From NCBI GenBank assembly GCA_019163135.1, contig JAFLKR010000007.1:1-52727 (forward strand): a DNA stretch of 52,727 bases. Reading direction: 5' to 3'. Positions 15,844 through 29,609 of the stretch are shown one piece after another. The first letter of the stretch is position 1; every line of letters starts with the position of its first letter. The translations under genes were made by a program, and so were the position numbers. The notes beneath the pieces were generated by a model. That model saw only the letters and a list, made by a program, of their open reading frames with translations, searched no databases and was not told the DNA's origin. Origin of the DNA: Desulfobulbaceae bacterium. GTDB taxonomy: Bacteria > Desulfobacterota > Desulfobulbia > Desulfobulbales > Desulfobulbaceae.

Positions 15844-15931
15844 GCGACACCCAATCGGCCATGACGTAAACCTGTCCTGAAAGCATGTTCAGGCCAGAAC
15901 GACCGTGGTTCTTCAGAGGAGTAATGCCAGC

Positions 15932-16315
15932 ATGATCATAGGGTACAAATGGTTGTTAGTGATGGTGGGCGGTAGCCTCGGGGCCGCAAGCCGCTACGGG
16001 ATTGGCTTGCTGACCGCAAGGCTGTGGGGAACCAATTTCCCCTATGGCACATTGGTGGTTAACTTGGTTGGATGTTTTATCATCGGATTGCTGTTCGCCC
16101 TGGCGGACCGTAGCCGTTTGCTGACCCCTGACGTGCGGTTACTCCTCATTACCGGCTACCTGGGCGCGTTGACCACCTTTTCCTCTTTTTCCCTGGAAAC
16201 CATCAACGCCGGTCGAGCCGGCCTAACCTTGCAACCTCTGACCAATATCCTGATCAATAATCTGGGCGGCTTGTCCCTCACTTATTTAGGATTGCGGTTG
16301 GGAGGACTGAGATAG
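15932..16315 (+). CDS. crcB: Fluoride ion channel CrcB/Fluc
   Basis: 127 residues, four membrane helices. Family motifs: GGSLGAASRYG near the N-terminus, FPYGTLVVNLVGCFIIG (the conserved Asn and Gly of helix 2), and GYLGALTTFSSFSLET (the TTFSxF Phe/Ser track that lines the fluoride pore). Fluc proteins form dual-topology dimers that let F- leave the cell. GAGGAG lies about 11 bases before ATG 15932. The next gene, a DUF190-CBS protein, follows after five bases; this pair is often seen together. No fluoride riboswitch was recognised upstream, though a short hairpin CCTGAA...TTCAGG lies near 15,876-15,893. Confidence 0.92.
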   Translation: MIIGYKWLLVMVGGSLGAASRYGIGLLTARLWGTNFPYGTLVVNLVGCFIIGLLFALADRSRLLTPDVRLLLITGYLGALTTFSSFSLETINAGRAGLTLQPLTNILINNLGGLSLTYLGLRLGGLR

Positions 16316-16320
16316 AGGGC

Positions 16321-17625
16321 ATGATGCTGAACTACCAAGCAATTGAAATATTTACCAACGAGGATGCTCGCTATCGGAACAAACCGGTGGCCGATGCCGT
16401 CATCCAATTTATCCGGGATTTAAAAATTGCGGCGCGCTGCATTGTCACCCGCGGCATTGCCGGCTGCTACGAAAGTGGCGAAATTTCAACAGGAAGAGTT
16501 GAAATTCTTTCCTTCAATCTGCCGATCCGCATTTACATCGTCCTGCCGGCAGCAGCGACCGAACAGGTGCTGACCGGAGTGGAAGAACGGGTCGGCAATG
16601 GCATCGTCGTTCTCCATGACCTCAAAGTGATCAGCCATAAAGCCGCCAACACCTTTTTTCCGCGTCAACTCATGGTGCGTGACGTCATGACGGCCGCCCC
16701 TGAATATGTCACTGCTAAAAGCCCCTTGAGCGATGCTGCCCGGCTGCTGCTTTCCTCGATTTTTACCGGACTGCCGGTTGTCGACCAGCATGACCGGCCT
16801 ATCGGGGTGATCACCCAAGGCGATTTGATCGCCAGAGGAGGCCTGCCATTGCGTCTCGGTCTGCTGGCCGAAACCGAAGAGGAGGGACTCGAAGCGACCA
16901 TGAACGCACTTGCCCCTAGGCGCGTGGTGGAAATTATGACCGCGCCGGCGGTGACCGTCGCAGCGGATCGGCCCTTGACCGAGGCGGTCGATCTTATGCT
17001 GGCAAAAGCGTTGAAACGCCTGCCAGTGGTGGACAAAGGCGGTCGCCTGGTCGGGATGCTGTCGCGTTTGGATATCTTCAAAACCGTGATGCGCGAAGCT
17101 CCCGATTGGGATGCCTTCCGGGCTCAGGACATTGAAGTGAAAAACTTGCGGATCGTGGCCGATATCCTCCGCCGTGATACCCAAACCGTCTTTGCCGACA
17201 CCACTATCGACAAAGTGATCCGGATCATAGACGGCAACGATATCCAGCGGGTGGCTGTGGTCAATGCCGAGGGTAAACTCCTTGGAATTATAGCCGATAG
17301 CGACTTGCTGCACTATTTCAAACCGGACCAGGAAGGTCTCCGCTACCTGTTTGCCAAGATGACTCAACCGTTCCGCGAGGATTCCGTGCAGGATATTGAA
17401 AAGCGCCTGGCGCAGACCAAGGCCAGCGAGGTCATGCGCACGGATATGCTCACCATCCGGGAAGACATGCTGATTGAGGAGGCCATCCGACTGATGACCG
17501 AAAAAAGCCTCAAACGGTTGCCGGTGGTGGACGACAACGATGGCTTCAAAGGAATGATCAGCCGGGATTCGCTGCTCCGCACGGGTTTTGGCCGACCACG
17601 TTCCTCTGAAGGGGAAAAGCTCTGA
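16321..17625 (+). CDS. DUF190 domain protein with four CBS domains
   Basis: 434 residues. The first about 105 are a DUF190 domain (YQAIEIFTNEDARYRNKPV, RGIAGCYESGEI, LPIRIYIV), a small PII-like fold. Then come four CBS domains at about 118-175, 200-255, 275-330 and 365-425, each with the xLPVVDxxxxxxGxIxxxDL pattern, forming two Bateman modules that usually bind adenine nucleotides. GAGGG overlapping the crcB stop serves as ribosome site; translation starts at ATG 16321 or 16324. Being fused to a nucleotide sensor and joined to crcB suggests it controls fluoride export in response to cell energy state (inference; DUF190 itself is uncharacterised). Confidence 0.85.
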   Translation: MMLNYQAIEIFTNEDARYRNKPVADAVIQFIRDLKIAARCIVTRGIAGCYESGEISTGRVEILSFNLPIRIYIVLPAAATEQVLTGVEERVGNGIVVLHDLKVISHKAANTFFPRQLMVRDVMTAAPEYVTAKSPLSDAARLLLSSIFTGLPVVDQHDRPIGVITQGDLIARGGLPLRLGLLAETEEEGLEATMNALAPRRVVEIMTAPAVTVAADRPLTEAVDLMLAKALKRLPVVDKGGRLVGMLSRLDIFKTVMREAPDWDAFRAQDIEVKNLRIVADILRRDTQTVFADTTIDKVIRIIDGNDIQRVAVVNAEGKLLGIIADSDLLHYFKPDQEGLRYLFAKMTQPFREDSVQDIEKRLAQTKASEVMRTDMLTIREDMLIEEAIRLMTEKSLKRLPVVDDNDGFKGMISRDSLLRTGFGRPRSSEGEKL

Positions 17626-17807: not shown

Positions 17808-18596
17808 ATGCCAGAATTCGTCGATCGCCACCCTTGCCCGCAACGTTTACCACTTTCCGGGGCCGTCAATTTTCGTGATCTCGGCGGCTACCGGACGGTT
17901 AACGATCGCCAGGTAAAGCAAAGGCTGGTTTTTCGTTCCGATCATCTCTCCCGTCTGACCGCCGAGGACCAGCAGTTGCTGCAGCACCTCCGGTTCAAGG
18001 TGGTCTGCGATTTGCGGACCGCCCAGGAACAGCAGCGACACCCCGACCTCCTGCCCCGCGATGGTTCAATTCGCCTGCTCCTCCTCCCGATACAAGCCGG
18101 AAACTTTGATCCGGCGCAGGTCATGGATCGCCTGCGCTCCGGAGAACGCGACTGGCTGTCTCTTGATTTCTTCGTCAACCTTTACCGGCAGTATCTTGAT
18201 GATTTCGGTCCGGTATGGGGCAAAATCCTTCGCCTAATTGCCGCTCCTGCGAACCTGCCCCTGGTCTTCCACTGCACCGGCGGCAAGGATCGCACCGGTA
18301 TCTGCGCAACGCTGCTGCTGCTGACCCTGGGGGTGCGGGAAAAAGATATCTTCCTGGACCACGATCGTTCCAACGCCTGCAATGCCGAGCGTCTGCAATC
18401 GATCTATGCCAGATTCGCCGACCTCGGCATCGAGCCGGAGCAGGCCGCGCCCTACCTGCAGGCACCCCGGGAACCCCTTGCCGCCATGCTGGAGCATCTG
18501 CGCAAATCCTACGGCACCATCGACAACTACCTGGAGACCAAGGCCGGGCTGGACGAAACCACGCTTGCGGCCCTACGGTCAAACCTGCTCGAATGA
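17808..18596 (+). CDS. Protein-tyrosine-phosphatase-fold enzyme (Y_phosphatase3 type)
   Basis: 262 residues from ATG 17808. The N-terminal phrase GAVNFRDLGGYRT and the P-loop HCTGGKDRTG (155-164; nucleophile Cys156, Arg162) define the tyrosine-phosphatase-like family whose members dephosphorylate phosphotyrosine or phosphoinositide/phospholipid head groups. Asp161 in GKDRTG is characteristic of the lipid-phosphatase branch. A GTG at 17724 would add 28 residues not typical of the family. The stop overlaps the start of the CDP-alcohol phosphatidyltransferase gene by four bases. I infer a lipid head-group phosphatase acting on that enzyme's product, as PGP phosphatase does in phosphatidylglycerol synthesis. 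Confidence 0.8.
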   Translation: MPEFVDRHPCPQRLPLSGAVNFRDLGGYRTVNDRQVKQRLVFRSDHLSRLTAEDQQLLQHLRFKVVCDLRTAQEQQRHPDLLPRDGSIRLLLLPIQAGNFDPAQVMDRLRSGERDWLSLDFFVNLYRQYLDDFGPVWGKILRLIAAPANLPLVFHCTGGKDRTGICATLLLLTLGVREKDIFLDHDRSNACNAERLQSIYARFADLGIEPEQAAPYLQAPREPLAAMLEHLRKSYGTIDNYLETKAGLDETTLAALRSNLLE

Positions 18597-19828
18597 CAAT
18601 CCCCTCGCCCCCCGCCGGTCGGCACCTAAACATCCCGGCAGGGAGAGCGCCGGCAAGGGTGCCGTTCCCCTTGCGTCGGCAGGTATGGCTGGCCGCTGCG
18701 CTCCTGTTCTGCCCCTGGCTGGCGACCCTGGTCCTCTGCGGGCCACTTATTCGACAGCATCCACTCGCCATTTTGACCCTGCTGCCGGGGCTCACCGTCG
18801 CGATCCATCTGCAGCGCCAACTGGTGACCAATATAGGCGCTAACCACCGATTCGGCGAAACGGACCGACCTTTCCCCACCCTGGGAGCCGCCACCTGGAT
18901 CACCCTGCTGCGGGCAGCGGCCATTGTCGCCCTTGCCGGTTTCCTGCCCCTGGCTATCCAACCAGTCCAGGCCATGACTCCGGGCCTGGCCTGGACTCCG
19001 GGGCTGATCTATCTGTTCATTTCCCTGGCTGACCTGGCGGACGGTTTTGTGGCCCGCAGGCAGCATCGGGAAACGGAACTCGGCAAACGGTTGGACATTG
19101 AAACCGATGCCGCAGGGCTGCTGGTCGCCCTGCTTTTAGCCGTCAGCCTCAATCGGTTGCCGGCCCTCTCGCTGCTGGTGGGGCTGGCCTATTACGTCTT
19201 CCTCTTCGGGATATGGTGGCGTCGGCAGCGGCATTTGCCCCTGATCGCGCTGCTATCACGGCCCTATTCGCGAATCATCGCCGGCTTCCAGATGGGGTTG
19301 GTGGCAATAGCGCTGCTCCCCCTCTTCCATCCGACCTGCACCGCCATCGCCGCCTGGCTGGTGATGACGCCGCTACTGGTTGGTTTTGTCCGGGATTGGC
19401 TGGTGGTCTCCTGCCGGATAGACATCGACAGCCACCAGCAAACGGCCCTGGATCATCGTGCTGGCCTCATGTTGACCCGATATCTTCCCTTGGCGCTGCG
19501 CCTGTGTATCCTGGCTGGCGGAATCTTCGCAGTCGCGGCAGGTAATTATTTCTCCCCGGTGCCCCACTTCTGGCGAGGAGCACTGAGCCTCTGCTGCCTG
19601 TTATCCGGCTTGGGCTGCGTGGGGCGCAGTGCCGCACTTTTGCTCACTCTGATGCTCGGCTGCGAACTGGCCCCTTTCGGAACGGAGTTTCCTGCCCTGG
19701 TGCTCTTTAGCGCTGCCGCCACCCTGATGCTCACCGGAACCGGCCCCCTGTCCCTCTGGTCCCCGGAAGAACGAATCCTCTATCGCCGCAACCGGATTGA
19801 ATCCGCGGTGGGGAGCGAACTCGCATGA
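18593..19828 (+). CDS. CDP-alcohol phosphatidyltransferase family membrane enzyme
   Basis: 411 residues with about nine to eleven hydrophobic helices. The full catalytic signature D-x2-DG-x2-AR-x8-G-x3-D-x3-D starts at Asp147 (DLADGFVARR ... GKRLDIETD), so the active site is intact. The family moves a phosphatidyl or similar group from a CDP-lipid to an alcohol, releasing CMP. The protein is longer than PgsA or Cls-type enzymes (about 200 residues), with extra membrane helices on both sides. It starts at the ATGA overlap with the phosphatase gene and ends in an ATGA overlap with the flippase-like gene. The acceptor alcohol is unknown. Confidence 0.85.
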   Translation: MTIPSPPAGRHLNIPAGRAPARVPFPLRRQVWLAAALLFCPWLATLVLCGPLIRQHPLAILTLLPGLTVAIHLQRQLVTNIGANHRFGETDRPFPTLGAATWITLLRAAAIVALAGFLPLAIQPVQAMTPGLAWTPGLIYLFISLADLADGFVARRQHRETELGKRLDIETDAAGLLVALLLAVSLNRLPALSLLVGLAYYVFLFGIWWRRQRHLPLIALLSRPYSRIIAGFQMGLVAIALLPLFHPTCTAIAAWLVMTPLLVGFVRDWLVVSCRIDIDSHQQTALDHRAGLMLTRYLPLALRLCILAGGIFAVAAGNYFSPVPHFWRGALSLCCLLSGLGCVGRSAALLLTLMLGCELAPFGTEFPALVLFSAAATLMLTGTGPLSLWSPEERILYRRNRIESAVGSELA

Positions 19829-20889
19829 CCACGAGCGCCAAGTCGCCACTTGCGAACCTCATCACCGCACTCACCGGTTGGCGCGGCCTGCTGCTGGTTC
19901 TCGGCATGGCCTTGGCCTGGCAGGCGTTGCGAGGCATGGCCTGGAATACCGCCTGGGCACAGTTGAGCCAGCTCAGTCCTGGTGCCCTGCTGATCCTGCT
20001 GGTGCTCAACCTGGTGATGCTGCCGCTGATGACCGCCCGCTGGTGGCTGCTCTTAAGGACGCTGGGCTCGCCGGTCAGATTGCTCACTGCCTGTGCGTAC
20101 CGCCTGGCCGCCAATGCGGTCAGCTACCTCACCCCTGGCCCCCATTTCGGCGGTGAACCGCTTTTGGTCTATCTCCTGCATCAGCGCCAGCAGATCCCGT
20201 TGCCTACCGCTGTAATCTCGGTGGCCCTGGACCGAATGCTTGAGCTTTGGGCCAGCATCGTGATCCTCAGCCTCAGCCTGCTCATACTGACAGCCTCTGA
20301 CAACGGCCCCTTTACCGGAGGATGGGCACTGCCTCTGGCAGTCTCCATGCTGGTTGTTCTCGCCGCTCTCCTGACCGCCCTGTTCACGGGCAGGCACCCG
20401 CTCTCCCGACTCGTTTCCTGGCTCAAGCGATTGGGCCGCAAGCAGCACTCCGCACCCACCGAGACCGCCGGAAGCTGGCTGGAAGCCATCATGCAAGGCG
20501 AGGTGATGGCCGAATCCCTCCTGCACCGGCATCAAAGCCCGTTTCTGCTGGCCAACCTGTACTCCCTGGCCCACTGGCTCGGGGTGTTGGTCGAATTTTG
20601 GCTGATGGCCGCTTTTCTGGGTCAGCCCTTGTCATTTTTCCAATTGCTGACCGTCGTAATTACCGCACGCCTGGCCTTTCTTACCCCCTTGCCAGCGGGC
20701 CTCGGCGTGCTCGAGTCGGCACTGCCCTGGGTAACTGCCGCCCTTGGCCTGGGGAGTGTCCTGGGGCTCAGCCTCTGCCTGCTCATCCGGTTTCGTGATA
20801 TCCTCTTCAGTCTGGCCGGATTAGGGCTGGCCATGAAGTATTTGACTTGTCCGGGCAAGGCCAGTACTGTTGCTGAAAAAGCAGGATAA
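19825..20889 (+). CDS. Flippase-like / lysylphosphatidylglycerol synthase transmembrane-type protein (UPF0104)
   Basis: 354 residues, about eight membrane helices. The phrases AARRWWLLLR-like (TARWWLLLRTLG), ANAVSYLTPGPHFGGEPLLVYLL and LTPLPAGLGVLESALPWV are the conserved motifs of the UPF0104/MprF-flippase-like family (MprF N-terminal domain, YbhN). Family members are thought to move or hold modified lipids in the membrane. Its start codon overlaps the stop of the CDP-alcohol phosphatidyltransferase gene (ATGA), implying coupled translation and a shared lipid substrate. A role in moving the new lipid across the inner membrane is inferred. Confidence 0.85.
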   Translation: MTTSAKSPLANLITALTGWRGLLLVLGMALAWQALRGMAWNTAWAQLSQLSPGALLILLVLNLVMLPLMTARWWLLLRTLGSPVRLLTACAYRLAANAVSYLTPGPHFGGEPLLVYLLHQRQQIPLPTAVISVALDRMLELWASIVILSLSLLILTASDNGPFTGGWALPLAVSMLVVLAALLTALFTGRHPLSRLVSWLKRLGRKQHSAPTETAGSWLEAIMQGEVMAESLLHRHQSPFLLANLYSLAHWLGVLVEFWLMAAFLGQPLSFFQLLTVVITARLAFLTPLPAGLGVLESALPWVTAALGLGSVLGLSLCLLIRFRDILFSLAGLGLAMKYLTCPGKASTVAEKAG

Positions 20890-21027
20890 TCAGACACAGC
20901 CGGTTCATAAATCTCCATTAATCTCTCTGGCTTCGGCTCGATTTCTCTCTGCCCACACGTAACTTTTTTCAGTTTGCGAACCGCATCCCTGAGATTCATA
21001 CTTCAAGAGGGGCATTCTCAAAAAACT

Positions 21028-21798
21028 ATGCTGCGTCGTGACCTCCCACCCCCGATATCCATCAGCTACGAAGGCAATGGCGACCAGGAACAATGGCTCG
21101 AGCAGCTGCCGCTCCTCTCCGAGCAATTTCTGGCAGCGCATCATCGCCCCCTGGTCACGATTTCCTATGCCCAAAGCGTCGATGGCAGCATCGCCACTCG
21201 CAACCGGGAACAGCTTCGGCTGAGCGGCCACCAGTCCATGGTCCTCACCCATCGCATCCGCGCCGCCTGCGATGCCATTGTCATCGGCATAAACACCCTG
21301 CTGATCGACAATCCGCTGCTCACCGTCCGGCTCGCCGAGGGGGCAAGCCCCCAGCCCATCGTCCTTGACAGCAAACTGCGCATTCCATTGCAGGCCCGCC
21401 TTCTGGAGCGCACCGACCTTCATTGCTGGCTGGCCTGTACCGACCTGGGTGATTCCGAACGGATCAGCGCGGTTGAAAACCAAGGGGGTGAGGTCATCCG
21501 CTGCCGCCAAGACCGTCAAGGCAGGGTGGACTTGCAGCATCTGCTCCATCAACTCGGCGAACGCGGCATCAGGAGCCTCATGGTGGAAGGCGGCAGCCAG
21601 GTGATCACCAGTTTCATCGAGGCACGCCTGGTGGACCAGATGATCATCACCATTGCGCCTCGCATGGTTGGCGGCCTCTCGGTGTTAGACCGGCCGGCTG
21701 CATGCAACGGCGCCCTTATGCATCTCAACCCTGTTTCCTACCAATCCTGCGGCCCGGACCTCATCCTCTGGGCCCAACCGCACTGGCAGGACGCATGA
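21028..21798 (+). CDS. RibD C-terminal-type reductase (dihydrofolate-reductase fold)
   Basis: 256 residues from ATG 21028. RPLVTISYAQSVDGSIA, HRIRAACDAIVIGINTLLIDNPLLTVR and SLMVEGGSQVITSF are the signature tracts of the RibD_C family, which in riboflavin synthesis uses NADPH to reduce the ribosyl chain of a pyrimidine to ribityl. The deaminase domain of full RibD is absent. There are about 40 residues ahead of the domain. GAGGGG lies upstream but 15 bases away, and an in-frame TTG at 20974 is possible. The next gene overlaps by four bases. In this operon the enzyme probably reduces an aldose-like or pterin/pyrimidine intermediate rather than supplying riboflavin (inference). Confidence 0.82.
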   Translation: MLRRDLPPPISISYEGNGDQEQWLEQLPLLSEQFLAAHHRPLVTISYAQSVDGSIATRNREQLRLSGHQSMVLTHRIRAACDAIVIGINTLLIDNPLLTVRLAEGASPQPIVLDSKLRIPLQARLLERTDLHCWLACTDLGDSERISAVENQGGEVIRCRQDRQGRVDLQHLLHQLGERGIRSLMVEGGSQVITSFIEARLVDQMIITIAPRMVGGLSVLDRPAACNGALMHLNPVSYQSCGPDLILWAQPHWQDA

Positions 21799-22829
21799 GG
21801 CAGCACCGGCTGGAATTTGTCGAGCCCGGCCGGGTCGCGGTGCTAGCTGGGCCGGCGCCGCACCCGACTGCGGAACAGGTTCTGGTGGAGACGCGACTCT
21901 CCGCAATCAGTCCGGGGACGGAGATGCTGATCTACCGCGGCCAGTGGCCCTCGGAGGTCACGGTCGACGCCACCCTGAATGCCTTAGCCGGGACCTTCGC
22001 CTATCCCTTGGCGTACGGCTACTGCACGGTCGGTCGGGTAATCGCGACCGGATCGGCGGTGCCAGGCGACTGGCTGGGCCGCCGGGTCTTTGCCTTCCAT
22101 CCCCACGAGAGCCTTTTCTGCGCCCTGCCTTCGACCCTGCATCCCATTCCCGATGACTTGGACGATGCCACAGCCCTTTTTCTCCCCAACATGGAGACTG
22201 CGGTCAACCTCCTGCTGGACGGGGCGCCCTTGATTGGCGAAAAGGTCGTCGTTATTGGCCAAGGAATCGTCGGCCTGCTCACCACCGGACTGCTCGCCCG
22301 TTTCCCGCTGGCCGGACTTACCGCCCTCGAATCCCACCCGCTGCGACGTGCGGCCTCAATTCGTCTGGGTGCCGACGTTTGCCTCGATCCGGCTGCCCCG
22401 GATCTTTCTGCCCGGTTAGGCGCAATTCCAGGCCAGGGCGGCCAGGCGGATTTGGTCTACGAACTTTCAGGCAACCCGGCAGCACTGGACACGGCCCTGG
22501 CGTTGACCCGCCCCAGCGGCCGGGTGGTGGTCGGTTCCTGGTACGGCAGTAAAAAGGTGGCGTTGGACCTCGGCTCTTTTTTTCATCGTGGCCGCCTCAC
22601 CCTGATCAGTTCTCAGGTGAGCAGCATTGCCCCAGCGCTCTTGGGCCGATGGCAGACCAGTCGCCGCCTGGATGTGGCCTGGGAAATGCTGCGCCAGATT
22701 CGGCCCCAGGCCTGCATTACCCATCGTTTCCCCCTGGCGGAGGCTTCTCTTGCTTATGCGCTCATAGATCGCAGCCCGGGTGAAACCATCCAGGTCATTT
22801 TCGAGCATCAATGCGCTGACGGGTTGTAA
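21795..22829 (+). CDS. Zinc-type (MDR) dehydrogenase, BchC-like subgroup
   Basis: 344 residues, medium-chain dehydrogenase/reductase. TRLSAISPGTEMLIYRGQWP replaces the catalytic-zinc CxxxxxGT segment and is typical of the subgroup with the bacteriochlorophyllide dehydrogenase BchC. LAYGYCTVGRVIATG and VVVIGQGIVGLLTTGLLA (nucleotide-binding GxGxxG) follow. The structural-zinc four-Cys lobe is missing. Starts in an ATGA overlap with the reductase gene, and the PTPS-like gene follows after 21 bases. It probably oxidises a secondary alcohol or reduces a ketone on the same intermediate as its neighbours; substrate unknown. Confidence 0.82.
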   Translation: MRQHRLEFVEPGRVAVLAGPAPHPTAEQVLVETRLSAISPGTEMLIYRGQWPSEVTVDATLNALAGTFAYPLAYGYCTVGRVIATGSAVPGDWLGRRVFAFHPHESLFCALPSTLHPIPDDLDDATALFLPNMETAVNLLLDGAPLIGEKVVVIGQGIVGLLTTGLLARFPLAGLTALESHPLRRAASIRLGADVCLDPAAPDLSARLGAIPGQGGQADLVYELSGNPAALDTALALTRPSGRVVVGSWYGSKKVALDLGSFFHRGRLTLISSQVSSIAPALLGRWQTSRRLDVAWEMLRQIRPQACITHRFPLAEASLAYALIDRSPGETIQVIFEHQCADGL

Positions 22830-22850
22830 AATTCACCAAGGAGAAAAACC

Positions 22851-23228
22851 ATGTACAGTCTCGGGGTACGGCGCGAATTCAGCGCCCGGCATTATCTGAT
22901 CGGCGGCGACTGGGGGGCGGAGAACATCGAGCATACCCATCGGTACCGGATGGAACTGGCCCTGGAGGCCTTGACCCTGGATCGCCACGGCTTTCTGGTA
23001 GATATTGTCGAAGTGGAACAGCATCTGGAGGCGGTGCTTGCCGATTTTGCAGGCCGAACGCTCAACGAACTGGCTTCCTTTAGCGGCCTCAACCCGAGTA
23101 TCGAACGATTGGCCACCATCCTCCATGCAGCCTTCAGTGCCCGACTGGCCCATTTTCGCCTTGAGGCCCTGACCGTCACCCTCTGGGAAGATGACATCGC
23201 CTGGACTTCCTACCGAGCGCCCCTCTGA
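22851..23228 (+). CDS. 6-pyruvoyl-tetrahydropterin synthase / QueD-fold protein without the usual Cys
   Basis: 125 residues of the PTPS fold. Zinc ligands are H14 (FSARHYL), H28 and H30 (EHTHRYRMEL); later family marks are FLVDIVEVEQHL, NPSIERLA and VTLWEDD. The catalytic Cys expected shortly before the His pair is absent; E24 and E27 sit in that stretch, and the motif is HTH rather than HGH. A pterin or related triphosphate could still bind, but the chemistry probably differs from QueD or biopterin synthesis (inference). AAGGAG precedes the ATG. The stop shares its last base with the next start. Confidence 0.85.
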   Translation: MYSLGVRREFSARHYLIGGDWGAENIEHTHRYRMELALEALTLDRHGFLVDIVEVEQHLEAVLADFAGRTLNELASFSGLNPSIERLATILHAAFSARLAHFRLEALTVTLWEDDIAWTSYRAPL

Positions 23229-24385
23229 TGCGCATCGGCCTGATCATCTACGGCAGCCTGAAAACCCTCACCGGCGGCTACCTCTATGACCGGATCGTGG
23301 TCCAGGGCCTGGAGCGGTTGGGCCATGAGGTGGAGGTAATCAGTCTCACCAGCGGCTCGTATTTCCGCCGACTCGGTCATGGTTTCTCATCCGGCCTCAG
23401 TCGACGACTGCTGGCTGGAAGATTCGACATCCTCCTGGAGGATGAACTTTGCCACCCTTCCCTTTTTCTGATCAACCAACGTCTGCGCCGGAGGGGTGGG
23501 CCGCCCGTGGTCGCCATTGTCCACCACATCTTCTGCCGGGAACCCCGTCCTGACTGGCAGAACAGTTTCCTGGCGCTTATCGAACGACGGTATCTGGCCT
23601 CGGTGGACGGCTTCATCTTCAACTCGGAGACAACCCGCCGGACCGTAACGGCCTTGGTGGGCAACCACCAGCCCCAAATCATCGCCTACCCGGCCGGTGA
23701 CCGTTTCGGCAGCCCCCTGTCCCCTGAACGCATCAGCCAGCGGGCAAGCCAGCCCGGCCCGTTGGAACTCCTCTTCCTGGGCATCATCATCCCCAGAAAA
23801 GGTTTACTGCCCTTGCTCAGCGCCCTGGCCGGCGTGGACCGCGCCCTCTGGCGCCTGACCGTGGTGGGCGGCCTCAACTTCGATCCTGCCCACACTGCCG
23901 AGGTCCGGCAACACATCCAGCAACTGGGCCTGGCGGATTCAGTCCGCTTTATCGGCCCTTGCGGCGATGATGAACTGGTCGAAATCCTCAGCGTCAGCCA
24001 TGTGTTCTGCATGCCCTATGCCTATGAGGGGTTCGGCATTGCCATTCTCGAGGCCATGGCCTTTGGCTTGCCGGCCATTGGCAGCCTTGAGGGGGCCGCA
24101 AACGAGACCATCAGCCACGGACACAACGGCTTTCTGCTGGCACCGGATGACCGGACGGGATTGGCGCAGCTGCTGATAAAGTTGCAGCACAATCGCCAAG
24201 AGCTGCTCCGACTCTCCCTTGCCGCCCGCGCGACCTATGCCAGCCGTCCTTGCTGGCAGGACAACGTCGCTGCCATTAACGGCTTTCTGAAAAAAATGAC
24301 CAACAGGCAAGGTATAGAGACAATCGTCGAGCCGTTGCGATCGACCGAAAACGCAGCACCGAGGGATGAACGTGGCGCAGGATAA
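23228..24385 (+). CDS. Glycosyltransferase family 4 (GT-B)
   Basis: 385 residues, GT-B fold. N-terminal domain: RIGLIIYGSLKTLTGGYLYDR. The C-terminal nucleotide-sugar domain has LLFLGIIIPRKGL, the phosphate-contact region and the E-x7-E element in YEGFGIAILEAMAFGLPAIGS (about residues 268-285), followed by GHNGFLLAPDD. Members retain the anomeric configuration and usually build glycolipids or polysaccharides at the inner face of the membrane. It overlaps its upstream neighbour by one base and its downstream neighbour by 20. Within this operon it likely adds a sugar to the lipid head group. Confidence 0.87.
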   Translation: MRIGLIIYGSLKTLTGGYLYDRIVVQGLERLGHEVEVISLTSGSYFRRLGHGFSSGLSRRLLAGRFDILLEDELCHPSLFLINQRLRRRGGPPVVAIVHHIFCREPRPDWQNSFLALIERRYLASVDGFIFNSETTRRTVTALVGNHQPQIIAYPAGDRFGSPLSPERISQRASQPGPLELLFLGIIIPRKGLLPLLSALAGVDRALWRLTVVGGLNFDPAHTAEVRQHIQQLGLADSVRFIGPCGDDELVEILSVSHVFCMPYAYEGFGIAILEAMAFGLPAIGSLEGAANETISHGHNGFLLAPDDRTGLAQLLIKLQHNRQELLRLSLAARATYASRPCWQDNVAAINGFLKKMTNRQGIETIVEPLRSTENAAPRDERGAG

Positions 24386-25346
24386 TTTGCCCAGCAACCG
24401 GTTGCATGCCCCCATTGCCGAGAAAACCGAGGGGAGCTTTGATCCCCGCTATCTCGCCGCCAAGAAGTCCATTGATGACCGGGCGCTGAACCGCTTCGTC
24501 TGGTCCGCGCTCTGCCAGGCCCTGCCGCTGACCACCGGGACTGCACCGGCGAACATCCTTGAGGTCGGCGCCGGCATCGGCACCATGCTGGCGCGAATGG
24601 TCGACTGGAGCTTGCTGACCGGCCCGGCAACCTATCGGGCTACGGATAGCGATGCCGGCCACCTGCAGCACGCCCGGCACTACCTTTCCGCCTGGGCCGA
24701 TCAACAGGGGCTTTCTTTGAACTGGTCTGGAAATCAGCACGGCCTGCTAGCCAGCCCACCCGCCCAAATCTCACTGTTTTTGGAGGAAGTCCGCGCTGAA
24801 GCGCTGGCCCGCCGAACCGAATCAAGGGGCACTTTCCATCTGGTCATCGCCCATGCCGTCCTCGACCTGATCGATCTCCCGGCAGTGCTGCCGGGGCTCC
24901 TGGCGCAGCTGACCCATAACGGCCTGGCCTATTTCACCTGCAACTTCGACGGCTCCACCCTCTTTCTGCCCGAATACCCCGGCGACGAAGAACAGGAAAT
25001 CCTCAGGCGCTATCATGCCTCCATGGAGGCCCGGCTGCTCGGAGCAAGCCGGACCGGTCGGAGACTGCTGAGCTTTCTGCAGCATCCGGATCTCGAGCTC
25101 CTGGCCGCCGGCAGTTCCGATTGGGTCATCCATCCCCGGAACGAGACCTACTCCGGAGATGAGGTGTGGTTCCTCCACGCCCTCATTGCCACCGTGGAAA
25201 AGGAACTCGCCGGGAAAAGCTGCCCTGCCCCCCCCGGTCTGGCCGCCTGGGCCCGCACCCGGCACCAACAGGTCGAGACGGGCACCTTGTCGTTCCTGGC
25301 CCGCAACCTCGATTTCCTGGCTCGCCGCCGACCACCTCAGCCATGA
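24366..25346 (+). CDS. Class I SAM-dependent methyltransferase
   Basis: 326 residues. Motif I is ILEVGAGIGTMLARM (about 60-74), with an acidic ATDSD after the next strand, and FHLVIAHAVLDLIDLPAVLPGL matches motif II/III. The C-terminal part (180-326) is not a familiar domain and may bind the substrate; YFTCNFDGSTLFLPEY is its most distinctive tract. The start ATG lies within the glycosyltransferase gene (20-base overlap), and the end overlaps the sulfatase-like gene by four bases. Whether it methylates the sugar, the pterin-like group or a small molecule is not visible. Confidence 0.82.
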   Translation: MNVAQDNLPSNRLHAPIAEKTEGSFDPRYLAAKKSIDDRALNRFVWSALCQALPLTTGTAPANILEVGAGIGTMLARMVDWSLLTGPATYRATDSDAGHLQHARHYLSAWADQQGLSLNWSGNQHGLLASPPAQISLFLEEVRAEALARRTESRGTFHLVIAHAVLDLIDLPAVLPGLLAQLTHNGLAYFTCNFDGSTLFLPEYPGDEEQEILRRYHASMEARLLGASRTGRRLLSFLQHPDLELLAAGSSDWVIHPRNETYSGDEVWFLHALIATVEKELAGKSCPAPPGLAAWARTRHQQVETGTLSFLARNLDFLARRRPPQP

Positions 25347-26941
25347 ACTTCACCAACCGCTCCTGGCCTCCCCTGCTGACGCTTGCCGCAGCCGTTGGTA
25401 TCCTCAGCGTCCTGCTGAACGTTGCGTATCCCGCTGAGCGCCTTTTCACCTGGCACTTGCTGCTGCCGTCCATTGACGTCTGGCTCCTGCTCCTTCCTCT
25501 GACCCTGGCCGCCTCTTGCGGAAAACGAACCCTGTTCTGGATCACCCTGCCGACATGGGCACTCTTCCTTGGCCTGCGTCTGATCCGTATCGGCGATAGC
25601 GTCGTGCCCATGTACCTTGACCGACCCTTCAACCTCTACATCGATTCCGGCTATCTGTACGGACTCTACGATCTGCTTAAAACCTCCTCGGGCCGTGACG
25701 ATTTCCTTCTGTTGTCGGCGGGGGCGGCGATGGTGACGCTCGGGGTTTGTGCCGTCAGCTGGCTCGCCTGGCAAATGGCCGCCAAGGCGCTGACCAGCGA
25801 CCGGATTCGAATTCCGTTTCTAGGGGTATCGGGCCTCGTCCTGGGCTCGGCTCTGATTGGGGGATGGCAGCCGGCCCAGCCGCTGACCCTGGTTCGCCTG
25901 GGCCAGGAGATCCGCTCCATCCACCAGCAGATCGAACAACAACGGGCCGTTGTTACCCAGATGGAGCGAACCGCCCAGGAACGGTCGGCCAATCCTGCCT
26001 CTCTCAACGGCCTTGGTGGGGCGGATGTCCTGCTGTTTATCATCGAATCTTATGGCCGCGTCGTCTTCAGCCAGACCCAGTACCGGCAGGTGATGGAAGC
26101 AACCATGACCGACTTCGGTAAAACCCTTGCGCTGCAGGGCTTCGAGGCGGTGTCTTCGTATTTGTTATCGCCCACCTACGGCGGTGAATCCTGGCTGGCC
26201 CATGGCACCTTGGAAACGGGTGTGCGGGTAGGCAATGACCTTGAAGAGACCGCGCTACTCCGATCCTCCCTGGAGCCCATGGCTTCAATTTTTCGCAAGA
26301 ACGGTTATCGTACCGTCTCGGTGATGCCCGGCACCCGATTCGCCTTTCCGGAAGGGGCCTATTTTGGCTATGAACAGGCCTATTACGCCTGGCATTTCGA
26401 TTATCAAGGGCGCACCTTCGGCTGGGCGCCCATGCCAGACCAATTCGTGCTCGACTGGGTACGCCGCCGCGAATTCATTACGCCTGAAAAACCAATTTTT
26501 GCCCGCTACGCCCTGATCAGCAGTCATGCTTCGTTCAGTATCCAACCGCCCTACATCGCCGATTGGGAAACGATCGGCGATGGCAGCCTCTACAAGGCGC
26601 GCGAGCCGATTTTCTTTCCCATTGAATGGCCGGATCTCAAGAATGCGGGCGAGGGCTATATGCGCTCCCTGGAGTATGAATTTACCCTCCTCGGCGACTA
26701 TCTCGCCCAGTATGTCACTACCGACACCCTGATTATCATTCTGGGCGATCACCAACCCAATCTGCAACTCACCGGCCCCGGTGAACCCTGGTCGGTACCG
26801 GTGCATATCATCAGCCGCAATTCCCGCTTGTTAACCCCATTCCGCCAACGGGGCTACACTCCCGGCCTTTTCCCCGCCCAACCGCTGCCTCATGCCGGAA
26901 TGGAGACCTTTCTACCGGGATTGCTGCAAGATTTCAGATAA
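25343..26941 (+). CDS. Membrane sulfatase-like hydrolase/transferase (LTA-synthase fold)
   Basis: 532 residues from the ATGA overlap at 25343. About five membrane helices occupy the first 190 residues; a coiled stretch (EIRSIHQQIEQQRAV) precedes the extracytoplasmic alkaline-phosphatase-fold domain. Its metal-site Glu is in DVLLFIIESYGR, the likely nucleophile region is SPTYGGESWLAHGTLETG, and the C-terminal metal pair is in IILGDHQPN. Relatives include lipoteichoic acid synthase and phosphoglycerol or phosphoethanolamine transferases, which take a head group from a phospholipid. As last gene of the operon it probably transfers or trims the finished head group on the periplasmic side (inference). 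Confidence 0.85.
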   Translation: MNFTNRSWPPLLTLAAAVGILSVLLNVAYPAERLFTWHLLLPSIDVWLLLLPLTLAASCGKRTLFWITLPTWALFLGLRLIRIGDSVVPMYLDRPFNLYIDSGYLYGLYDLLKTSSGRDDFLLLSAGAAMVTLGVCAVSWLAWQMAAKALTSDRIRIPFLGVSGLVLGSALIGGWQPAQPLTLVRLGQEIRSIHQQIEQQRAVVTQMERTAQERSANPASLNGLGGADVLLFIIESYGRVVFSQTQYRQVMEATMTDFGKTLALQGFEAVSSYLLSPTYGGESWLAHGTLETGVRVGNDLEETALLRSSLEPMASIFRKNGYRTVSVMPGTRFAFPEGAYFGYEQAYYAWHFDYQGRTFGWAPMPDQFVLDWVRRREFITPEKPIFARYALISSHASFSIQPPYIADWETIGDGSLYKAREPIFFPIEWPDLKNAGEGYMRSLEYEFTLLGDYLAQYVTTDTLIIILGDHQPNLQLTGPGEPWSVPVHIISRNSRLLTPFRQRGYTPGLFPAQPLPHAGMETFLPGLLQDFR

Positions 26942-27163: not shown

Positions 27164-27763
27164 ATGAAGAAGCGCATACCGTTTACTCTCGTCGTCGTTT
27201 TTCTTGTTGGATTAATCGTCGCCCCGCTGCATGCCGAAATCCGTTCCTGGGAAATTGACAAGGAACATACCAACTTTTATTTCAGTGTCGATCACATCTA
27301 TGCCAAGGTCCGGGGTCATTTCACCGATTTTAAAGGGATTTTCCTTTTTGATCCCGACAACCTCAACGACAGTAAAATCTCCTTTGAGATCAATGTGAAA
27401 AGTATCGACACCGGCATCCGCAAACGCGACGAGCATTTGCTGTCAGCGGATTTTCTCGAGGCGTCCAAGTATCCTTTGATGACGTTTACCAGCAGCAGCA
27501 TCACCAAAACCGGGAAAAACACCTATAACGTCAACGGCAAATTGACGATAAAAGATGTTTCCTCCAACCTCACACTCCCCCTTACTTATGCAGGCAGGAA
27601 GGATCACCCCTTATCTCCAGGCATGGAAGTGGCTGGCTTTAATGGTCATTTGACCCTTGACCGACTGACCTATAACGTCGGGGATGGGAAATATTACCAA
27701 ATGGGTGCAGTCGGCAAGGACGTTGATATTTTGGTGACGATTGAGGCGCTCCGAAAAAAATAG
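27164..27763 (+). CDS. YceI family periplasmic lipid-binding protein
   Basis: 199 residues. A Sec signal peptide (MKKRIPFTLVVVFLVGLIVAPLHA) is followed by the YceI beta-barrel: WEIDKEHTNFYFSVDHIYAKV, KSIDTGIRKRDEHLLSADFLEASKYPLMTF, GKLTIKDVSSNLTLPLTY and a closing strand VDILVTIEAL. YceI proteins bind long polyprenyl/isoprenoid molecules in the periplasm. GGAGG stands eight bases before ATG 27164; the longer frame upstream is not used. It sits 222 bases after the lipid operon; a functional link is possible but unproven. Confidence 0.9.
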   Translation: MKKRIPFTLVVVFLVGLIVAPLHAEIRSWEIDKEHTNFYFSVDHIYAKVRGHFTDFKGIFLFDPDNLNDSKISFEINVKSIDTGIRKRDEHLLSADFLEASKYPLMTFTSSSITKTGKNTYNVNGKLTIKDVSSNLTLPLTYAGRKDHPLSPGMEVAGFNGHLTLDRLTYNVGDGKYYQMGAVGKDVDILVTIEALRKK

Positions 27764-27944: not shown

Positions 27945-28076
27945 TCGCCGTTGACAGCCACGCAGGGGCTTTCGTTATGGGGTTGAAACGATGCCGGGAG
28001 ATGGGGATGAAAACAAAGCGATTTCTTCACCCCGCATTCGACGTGTTCACTACGCAACAAAGAGAGGATGAAATAT

Positions 28077-29609
28077 ATGTTTGAATCTGCTGAATTGGGA
28101 CACAAAATCAAAAAATCCGTTTATGAGGAAGAAGTGCCTCCTTTGCGTGAGGCCCTGCTCAATACCCAGATGGAACTGGCGGAATCGGCCAAGTTTCCGG
28201 TAGTTATCCTGATCGGTGGACTGGACGGCGCCGGACGTGGCGAAACCGTCAACCTGCTCAACGAATGGATGGATCCACGTCACATCCAGACCCATGGCAT
28301 GGGCGATCCCTCCGACGAGGAACTCGATCGCCCCATGATGTGGCGTTTTTGGCGAGCCTTGCCGCCCAAGGGGAAAATCGGTTTATTCCTGGGTTCCTGG
28401 TACACATGGCCGATCCTGAACCGGGTCAATAGGATCACCAAGGAAGCCGATCTTGAACACAGCCTGGAGCGGGCCAAACTATTGGAAAAAATGCTTGTGG
28501 ACGAAGGTGCCCTGCTCATCAAGTTCTGGCTGCACCTCTCCAAAGATAAACAGGAGAACCGTCTCAAATCATTAGAAAAGAACCCCTTGACCCGCTGGAA
28601 AGTCACCGACCGTGACTGGAAACACTTCAAGGTCTACGACAAGTTCCAGGAGGTCCATGAAAACGTGATCCGCCACACCAGCACGGCCGAGGCCCCCTGG
28701 CTGATCGTGGAAGGCGAGGATGCGAATTACCGCAACCTGACGGTGGGCAAGGTAATCCTTAAGGCAATCCAGGATCGACTGGAACTGGACAAAACGCCGC
28801 CGCTCAAGATTCTGGCCCCGCCTTTGATGCCTTCCATCGACAACCTGCACCTGCTGAAAACCCTGGACATGGCGCAGGCTCTGGACAAAGACAAATTTAA
28901 GATCAAGCTGGAAGAATATCAGGGCAAGCTGAATGTACTGACACGCGATCCCAAGTTCAAGTACATGTCGGTGATTGCGGTGTTCGAGGGCAACGACGCT
29001 GCAGGCAAGGGCGGCAGTATCCGCCGCATTACCGGAGCCTTAGATGCCCGCTATTACCAGGTCATCCCCATTGCCGCCCCCACCGAGGAAGAACGCGCCC
29101 AGCCTTATCTGTGGCGATTCTGGCGGCATCTCCCGCGGAAAGGGCGTGTCACCGTTTTTGACCGCTCCTGGTACGGTCGGGTGCTGGTGGAACGCGTTGA
29201 AGGATACTGCGCGGAGGCTGACTGGATGCGGGCCTATAGCGAAATCAACGAGTTCGAGGCGCAAATGGTCAGGCATCATCTCCTGGTCGCAAAATTCTGG
29301 TTGGCCATCACCAGGGAGGAGCAACTGCAACGATTCGAGGACAGGCAGAAAACCGGGTTCAAGCGCTTTAAAATTACCGAGGAGGACTGGCGCAACCGGG
29401 AGAAATGGGAGCCATACGAACAGGCCGTCTGCGATATGGTGGATCGGACCAGCACCCGGCTGGCGCCGTGGACCCTGGTGGAATCCAACGACAAAAATTT
29501 TGCACGCATTAAGGTACTGAAGACCTTGTGCGAAAAAATTGAAGCGAAGCTCAAGGAATTGTACGAGGAGGGGGTCGACTACCTGGATAAACCCAAAAAA
29601 CGCCGCTGA
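28077..29609 (+). CDS. pap: Polyphosphate:AMP phosphotransferase (two-domain PPK2)
   Basis: 510 residues with two PPK2 domains in tandem. The N-terminal copy has a degenerate P-loop (GGLDGAGRGETVN), the C-terminal copy an intact one (EGNDAAGKGGSIRR) and the lid phrase VFDRSWYGRVLVERVEGY. This two-domain, class II layout is that of polyphosphate:AMP phosphotransferase, which makes ADP from AMP and polyphosphate. The start MFESAELGHKI matches the family; AGAGG is nine bases upstream of ATG 28077, while ATG 28068 would be too close. Cytoplasmic; single gene. Confidence 0.9.
   Translation: MFESAELGHKIKKSVYEEEVPPLREALLNTQMELAESAKFPVVILIGGLDGAGRGETVNLLNEWMDPRHIQTHGMGDPSDEELDRPMMWRFWRALPPKGKIGLFLGSWYTWPILNRVNRITKEADLEHSLERAKLLEKMLVDEGALLIKFWLHLSKDKQENRLKSLEKNPLTRWKVTDRDWKHFKVYDKFQEVHENVIRHTSTAEAPWLIVEGEDANYRNLTVGKVILKAIQDRLELDKTPPLKILAPPLMPSIDNLHLLKTLDMAQALDKDKFKIKLEEYQGKLNVLTRDPKFKYMSVIAVFEGNDAAGKGGSIRRITGALDARYYQVIPIAAPTEEERAQPYLWRFWRHLPRKGRVTVFDRSWYGRVLVERVEGYCAEADWMRAYSEINEFEAQMVRHHLLVAKFWLAITREEQLQRFEDRQKTGFKRFKITEEDWRNREKWEPYEQAVCDMVDRTSTRLAPWTLVESNDKNFARIKVLKTLCEKIEAKLKELYEEGVDYLDKPKKRR

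Follow-up and report, generated by a model that had tools for sequence, protein, structure and literature searches.

We describe a conserved gene cluster represented by an operon of nine genes (17808-26941, forward strand) in a 52,727-nucleotide stretch of contig JAFLKR010000007.1 from a Desulfobulbaceae bacterium (assembly GCA_019163135.1), hereafter the window. The cluster is read here as a pathway that branches from riboflavin biosynthesis and would end, at least in lineages with its membrane genes, in a membrane lipid; we put the probability of this reading at roughly 0.55. On the sequence features tested, the cluster is not a member of the riboflavin, queuosine, tetrahydrobiopterin (BH4) or folate pathways, and for each known pathway that draws on such enzymes, a defining feature that was tested is missing from the cluster. 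The original prediction, made from the DNA letters alone, knew of no characterised pathway with this set of genes; likewise, no description of the cluster, of the neighbours of its structural relative SCO6650 or of pterin lipids was found in the literature searched, which left most subscription journals outside.

The core of the cluster comprises genes for a RibD_C reductase, a BchC-like alcohol dehydrogenase (ADH), a PTPS homologue, a GT4 glycosyltransferase and a methyltransferase (MT). This is also their common order across bacterial phyla and in Halobacteria, often with a CDP-alcohol phosphatidyltransferase gene added. A tblastn search of plasmids with the window PTPS gave matches in haloarchaea, Thiodictyon and Streptomyces, whose neighbourhoods carry the same families, and ADH matches extended the set to Methylosinus, Agrobacterium, Rhodobacteraceae, Microbacterium and further haloarchaea. 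Scanning named genome contigs with the ADH alignment yielded 80 loci from Desulfobacterota, Chloroflexota, Halobacteria, a methanogen record, Bacillota, Binatota, Acidobacteria, Proteobacteria, Actinomycetota, Spirochaetota and Gemmatimonadota, and the window's own class contributed 16 stretches. Gene maps were drawn with profiles for 104 non-redundant loci, in which we counted ADH (103), GT4 (88), PTPS (83), RibD_C (78), MT (66), CDP-alcohol enzyme (42), GTP cyclohydrolase (GCH) II (35), flippase-like protein (27), sulfatase-like protein (16), YceI (11), protein tyrosine phosphatase (PTP)-fold phosphatase (10), creatininase (8) and GCH IIa (7). These are lower bounds, since the cluster is often cut off by the end of its contig. 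Selection of the loci used ADH or PTPS; the counts of these two genes therefore provide no independent evidence, whereas the others do. Neighbouring genes on the same strand were found for ADH-PTPS in 75 of 82 cases, for RibD_C-ADH in 64 of 78 and for GT4-MT in 59 of 65.

Tree distances among ADH, PTPS, RibD_C, MT and the CDP-alcohol enzyme correlated at r 0.82-0.91, values to which shared species history may contribute, compared with at most 0.38 in shuffles. Chance clustering was rejected, as these genes are grouped in many phyla, in archaea as well as in bacteria, and the trees correlate. The check set by the original prediction, co-occurrence and gene order outside near relatives, was thus borne out, and the existence, conservation and co-evolution of the cluster, together with the residue signatures given below, are demonstrated at the level of sequence. 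The original interpretation as a whole held in part: the single-pathway reading survives its refutation test, but the genes for the tyrosine-phosphatase-like and LtaS-like proteins are lineage-specific accessories, and the YceI gene had been left out. Gammaproteobacteria and Actinomycetota each contain both types of PTPS described below, and the residues of RibD_C for the most part go with the PTPS type, a pattern that suggests transfer of the cluster as a block. At an ADH match cut-off of E ≤ 1e-70, the marker was found in 140 of 242 sampled genomes of Halobacteria, 44 of 251 of Chloroflexota and 37 of 296 of Actinomycetota.

The entry point is indicated by clusters other than that of the window. 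The NCBIfam cut-offs for GCH II or archaeal GCH IIa were passed in clusters L028, L029 and L003. The cluster GCH II proteins retain the zinc cysteines wherever these are covered, and the position of E. coli Tyr105 is Tyr where covered, except for Met in two Streptomyces. The Met form of the Streptomyces protein SCO6655 reportedly stops at the formyl intermediate (FAPy). Both Streptomyces clusters carry the Met-type GCH II together with a creatininase, and so show the features of this FAPy-forming type; SCO6655 is annotated as GTP cyclohydrolase II (PMC2853524), and the creatininase-family protein BrbF of S. meliloti deformylates 2-amino-5-formylamino-6-ribosylaminopyrimidinone 5'-phosphate (AFRPP) to 2,5-diamino-6-ribosylaminopyrimidinone 5'-phosphate (DARoPP) (PMC9478397). 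The presence of GCH II/IIa and of a creatininase-type formamidase in these clusters therefore points to the riboflavin branch (GTP to DARoPP), and not to GCH I, as the entry.

The second step is indicated by the stand-alone RibD_C reductase (21028..21798, +; TIGR00227 above cut-off), which has no fused deaminase domain; the housekeeping RibD is encoded elsewhere in the genome. At the position of E. coli RibD Lys152, cluster proteins have mostly Ser or Thr and in other cases Gln, Arg or His; Lys is found there in only 2 of about 81 sequences. The catalytic D102 and E195 are invariant in this set. The window protein has S54 at the Lys152 position, D102 and E195 (alignment numbering; column 54 was placed by PDB alignment). 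Lys152 of the E. coli enzyme favours the 2-oxo substrate and Thr, found in yeast, the 2-amino substrate, archaea having Asn; the T35K change in yeast RIB7 moves the preference from 2-amino to 2-oxo (PMC3631187). The fused deaminase and Lys152 of bacterial RibD are not features of the window RibD_C, which by its residue pattern is of the RIB7/ArfC type, with DARoPP as the predicted 2-amino substrate. The family assigned by the original prediction is in this way retained and refined to the archaeal/fungal type.

The distribution of this gene fits the same intermediate. Bacteria deaminate before reduction and archaea and fungi reduce first (PMC3631187), so that bacteria would have none of the ribityl compound 2,5-diamino-6-ribitylaminopyrimidinone 5'-phosphate (DARiPP). 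RibD_C was found in 78 of 89 bacterial and 0 of 15 archaeal loci (Fisher p 1.6e-11, which overstates independence because loci share ancestry). Its absence from archaeal clusters is expected if the intermediate is DARiPP, as archaea already make this compound. In two haloarchaea the sole RibD_C is remote from the cluster, at distances of about 190 kb and 1.5 Mb, and four bacteria have RibD_C near the cluster plus further copies, one of them (Halomonas, L104) having been missed by the gene maps.

We therefore propose that GTP would first be opened to DARoPP by GCH II or, alternatively, by a formyl-stopping GCH IIa or Met-type GCH II acting with a creatininase-family formamidase; bacteria without a GCH copy in the cluster, including this one, would rely on the housekeeping RibA, present here as a single copy outside the operon. 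RibD_C would then reduce DARoPP to DARiPP without deamination, a step for which archaea would use the reductase of their riboflavin pathway. These two steps, and the shared early intermediate, are well supported. The predicted reactions GTP to DARoPP to DARiPP and the enzyme families (RibA, RibD/RIB7/ArfC, ArfB/BrbF) are shared with the riboflavin pathway; the cluster differs in having no deaminase and in continuing with the ADH, the PTPS homologue, GT4, MT and lipid enzymes. A role in riboflavin supply was rejected because separate RibA and RibD genes lie at other sites in the genome.

The PTPS/QueD homologue (22851..23228, +; Pfam PF01242) had been predicted from its family, which stands. 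The pterin-binding Glu (QueD Glu110) is kept in all cluster PTPS, and the residues for PTPS/QueD chemistry are missing. The Cys/Asp/His triad is absent from every cluster PTPS, and the window protein has Glu-Ala-Gly at the Cys27/Asp70/His71 positions, with the pterin-binding features of COG0720 retained as Glu113 and the zinc histidines H14/H28/H30. Known COG0720 motifs are CxxxHGH, CxxxxxHGH and ExxHGH (PTPS-I, -II and -III; PMC5041015). The window motif E-N-I-E-H-T-H (ExxxHxH) corresponds neither to ExxHGH of PTPS-III nor to the C-xn-HGH pattern of QueD/PTPS-I and PTPS-II. The cluster proteins fall into (i) group E, to which the window PTPS belongs, where Glu replaces the Cys, the three zinc histidines are with rare exceptions retained and the motif is ExxxHxH, and (ii) group A, which has Ala at the Cys position, the motif FGPAQxxHGA or FGPAxxxHGH, and has lost the third His in Proteobacteria and Streptomyces. 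Both share the family and the invariant pterin-binding Glu with PTPS-I (QueD), -II and -III, and group E also the zinc histidines. On a fragment from the same class (L129), GT4 and sulfatase-like genes accompany a divergent PTPS (44% identity), and no ADH is present.

The closest solved structure to the window PTPS is S. coelicolor SCO6650 (PDB 3d7j), for which no assigned function was found in the literature searched. A near-identical PTPS is carried by S. fungicidicus, and the SCO6650-type PTPS of this species and of S. globisporus sits with a CDP-alcohol enzyme, GT4, MT, flippase, creatininase and Met-type GCH II. The Streptomyces proteins differ from the window PTPS in belonging to group A, with the third zinc His replaced by Ala, and not to group E.

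Fold and annotation of the PTPS homologue would also suit a BH4- or folate-type pathway, in which a GCH I product would pass through a true PTPS and reduction to a tetrahydropterin glycoside, with the ADH possibly serving as sepiapterin reductase. This explanation is largely refuted and we consider it very unlikely: the clusters carry GCH II/IIa, the triad is found in no cluster PTPS, and the cluster motif is unlike those of PTPS-I, -II and -III (PMC5041015). A role in queuosine or BH4 synthesis was rejected on the missing triad and because a normal QueD-like protein is encoded elsewhere in the genome. Family names alone would likewise fit extra housekeeping copies for riboflavin, queuosine and phospholipid synthesis, brought together by accident or for dosage. 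We give this hardly any credence, since RibD, RibA, the QueD-like protein and two other CDP-alcohol enzymes are present elsewhere in the genome, and the cluster copies have divergent active sites in a set conserved across phyla.

Another core enzyme, the cluster marker (21795..22829, +), had been called a BchC-like dehydrogenase. Its membership of the medium-chain dehydrogenase/reductase (MDR) family holds, but the catalytic zinc motif is missing, and BchC is its best NCBIfam match only below threshold (65.8 bits vs a cut-off of 291). The zinc ADH ligands (Cys of CGxD, and GHE) are replaced by S-P-G-T-E and Y-G-Y, no Cys is conserved among 103 dehydrogenase sequences, and the conserved histidines correspond to window His104 and His264. 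Unlike BchC, a 3-hydroxyethyl bacteriochlorophyllide dehydrogenase, the cluster enzyme occurs in organisms that are not phototrophic, among them sulfate reducers and haloarchaea. The GT4 glycosyltransferase gene (23228..24385, +; Pfam PF00534 and PF13439) adjoins those for PTPS and MT in most loci. The class I S-adenosylmethionine-dependent MT (24366..25346, +) has a C-terminal extension conserved in the clusters; a Foldseek search with its AlphaFold2 (AF2) model (pLDDT 91.6) matched generic class I methyltransferases only, and the fold therefore gives no hint of the substrate.

From these enzymes a continuation of the pathway may be drawn. The zinc-less MDR dehydrogenase would oxidise a ribityl hydroxyl of DARiPP; were this at C2', the product would be the same amino-ketose that GCH I makes by Amadori rearrangement, which closes to a dihydropterin. 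The PTPS-fold protein, holding the 2-amino-4-oxopyrimidine by its invariant Glu, could then close or trim the product to a pterin-like unit, to be decorated by GT4 and the MT. Finally, the CDP-alcohol phosphatidyltransferase would link the unit to a phosphatidyl group and the UPF0104 protein would flip the product, which outside may be acted on by a PbgA/LtaS-like enzyme in some lineages and by the YceI lipocalin, along with cytochrome b561 in others.

The lipid end product, the most likely reading, is suggested by gene content and co-evolution. The CDP-alcohol phosphatidyltransferase (18593..19828, +; Pfam PF01066) has 411 residues including an extra C-terminal part, and is one of three such enzymes in the genome, the other two lying outside the operon. 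Its motif (DLADGFVARRQHRETELGKRLDIETD) is intact in the window, as originally predicted, and 43 of the 45 cluster copies, that of the window among them, keep the full pattern D-x2-DG-x2-AR-xn-G-x3-D-x3-D. The gene occurs with the core in Desulfobacterota, Chloroflexota, Halobacteria, Proteobacteria, Actinomycetota and Binatota, and its tree correlates with those of ADH, PTPS, RibD_C and MT (r 0.84-0.89). This co-evolution with most of the core supports a lipid-linked product. In the window the CDP-alcohol gene is followed by that for a UPF0104/LPG_synthase_TM flippase-like membrane protein (19825..20889, +; Pfam PF03706, E 4.3e-33). The lipid with a pterin-like head group put forward by the original prediction is still the best fit, with the difference that its entry lies in the GCH II/IIa riboflavin branch.

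Several observations weigh against this reading. Ring closure through C2' oxidation and the PTPS-fold protein is suggested by analogy, and the substrates of ADH, PTPS, GT4 and MT are likewise putative. The GT4 tree correlates less tightly with the others (r 0.58-0.79). Two further clusters combine a creatininase with a Tyr-type GCH II; a formamidase function is thus not to be assumed for every creatininase, and the match of this gene with the Met form is suggestive rather than strict. The CDP-alcohol gene lies within about 10 kb in only 42 of the 104 loci, and the flippase gene in 27, many contigs being truncated; in Chloroflexota the CDP-alcohol gene is nearby in only 3 of 26. Because these genes are seen in a minority of loci, the product may be soluble in some lineages. 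Fold matches of the PbgA/LtaS-like enzyme to PbgA, LtaP and LtaS are weak and come from a low-confidence AF2 model.

A general form of this alternative is that the cluster makes a soluble, secreted glycosylated pterin or pyrimidine, either a secondary metabolite or a cofactor, the genes for the CDP-alcohol enzyme, the flippase and the sulfatase-like protein being optional tailoring or part of a neighbouring lipid function. Cyanobacteria and Chlorobium are known to contain pterin glycosides, and many loci (for example L090, L092 and L042) have the RibD_C-ADH-PTPS-GT4-MT core without membrane genes. The tracking of the core by the CDP-alcohol gene, and its company with the core in six lineages, argue in the other direction, and we regard a soluble product as a possible but rather doubtful explanation.

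The membrane alkaline-phosphatase-superfamily enzyme (25343..26941, +; PbgA/LtaS-like) is probably a head-group transferase or hydrolase. Enzymes of the LtaS/EptA/PbgA kind have a metal-binding Glu, an Asp-His pair and a catalytic Thr or Ser in the extracellular domain. Glu235, Ser283, His395 and Asp469-His470 are invariant in eight aligned sequences, and the protein, a candidate member of this group, keeps some residues typical of the superfamily's metal site; a PDB sequence search with it gave no match. A tenth, recurrent part of the gene set, outside the operon as first bounded, is the YceI-family lipocalin encoded 3' of it (27164..27763, +; Pfam PF04264, E 6.2e-41). It is the sole YceI copy in the 3.64 Mb genome, and YceI genes adjoin the cluster in Desulfobacterota and in alpha-, beta- and gamma-proteobacteria; cytochrome b561 is encoded in clusters L004, L028 and L095. 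Isoprenoids or ubiquinone are bound by YceI proteins, which work as a pair with cytochrome b561 in protecting against lipid peroxyl radicals (PMC9113575). That YceI (BcnA)/b561 (LcoA) system resembles the present one in the YceI gene beside the cluster and the b561 genes in other clusters; it differs in that its ligand is thought to be ubiquinone and that the parts available describe no such biosynthetic cluster (PMC9113575). As YceI and cytochrome b561 accompany the clusters, a redox role for the product is conceivable. An unlikely, more specific version would be a GCH I-independent route in which DARoPP is reduced and the ribityl chain re-oxidised to give a dihydroneopterin-type ring. The resulting pterin would form the head group of a membrane lipid that is also glycosylated and methylated; in archaea and bacteria alike, this lipid could carry redox equivalents in the membrane or trap radicals as an antioxidant, YceI carrying it and b561 reducing it.

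The operon layout agrees fully with the original prediction. All nine open reading frames (ORFs) are on the forward strand, with overlaps of 4 bases at 18593-18596, 19825-19828, 21795-21798 and 25343-25346, 1 base at 23228 and 20 bases at 24366-24385; the only gaps are of 138 bp (20890-21027) and 21 bp (22830-22850). The 138-bp gap (20890..21027, +) holds no known RNA family, an Rfam search of the window and four related loci having given no match, and riboswitch control was rejected. The first gene encodes the PTP-fold phosphatase (17808..18596, +; Y_phosphatase3, Pfam PF13350, E 2.7e-60) with an HCTGGKDRTG active site, found in 10 of 23 Desulfobacterota loci and in none of the other cluster loci. 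Of the product list first given, seven families passed the Pfam cut-offs (Y_phosphatase3, CDP-OH_P_transf, LPG_synthase_TM (UPF0104), RibD_C, ADH_zinc_N, PTPS and GT4), while the methyltransferase and sulfatase-type matches fell below them and BchC was sub-threshold.

The GC content of positions 18001-26000 is 61-63%, compared with roughly 43-58% in most other bins of the window. In the class sample, 19 of the 243 genomes match the PTPS at E ≤ 1e-12, a few of them weakly; of the same-genus genomes listed there, the window's own and a single other carry it. The high GC and the absence of the cluster from most of the same-genus genomes listed suggest lateral acquisition. Upstream of the operon (15905-17625) lie a probable CrcB fluoride channel gene and a gene for a CBS-domain protein, both probably unrelated, and downstream (28068-29609) a probable polyphosphate kinase 2 family gene, all judged by translation only. 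In other clusters, a GT2 glucosyltransferase gene (annotated MdoH in L027) recurs by the proteobacterial L027, L091, L094, L103 and L104. The haloarchaeal L003, L033, L070, L071, L072 and L074 carry a Gfo/Idh-type oxidoreductase (the L033 copy annotated as aldo/keto reductase) and a small membrane protein that recurs also in Chloroflexota clusters. Further recurrent neighbours looked generic.

The marker of this cluster is present in more than half of the sampled Halobacteria and in 12-18% of the sampled Actinomycetota and Chloroflexota, yet the annotations of the cluster genes name queuosine, riboflavin or generic enzymes. If the proposed pathway is correct, these organisms would make a widespread GTP-derived, probably lipid-linked compound that is unnamed in the literature searched. 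The orphan structure SCO6650 would then also gain a context, as would a COG0720 subgroup that lies outside the described motifs checked. With DARiPP as the predicted intermediate, the pathway would be testable in vitro with few enzymes.

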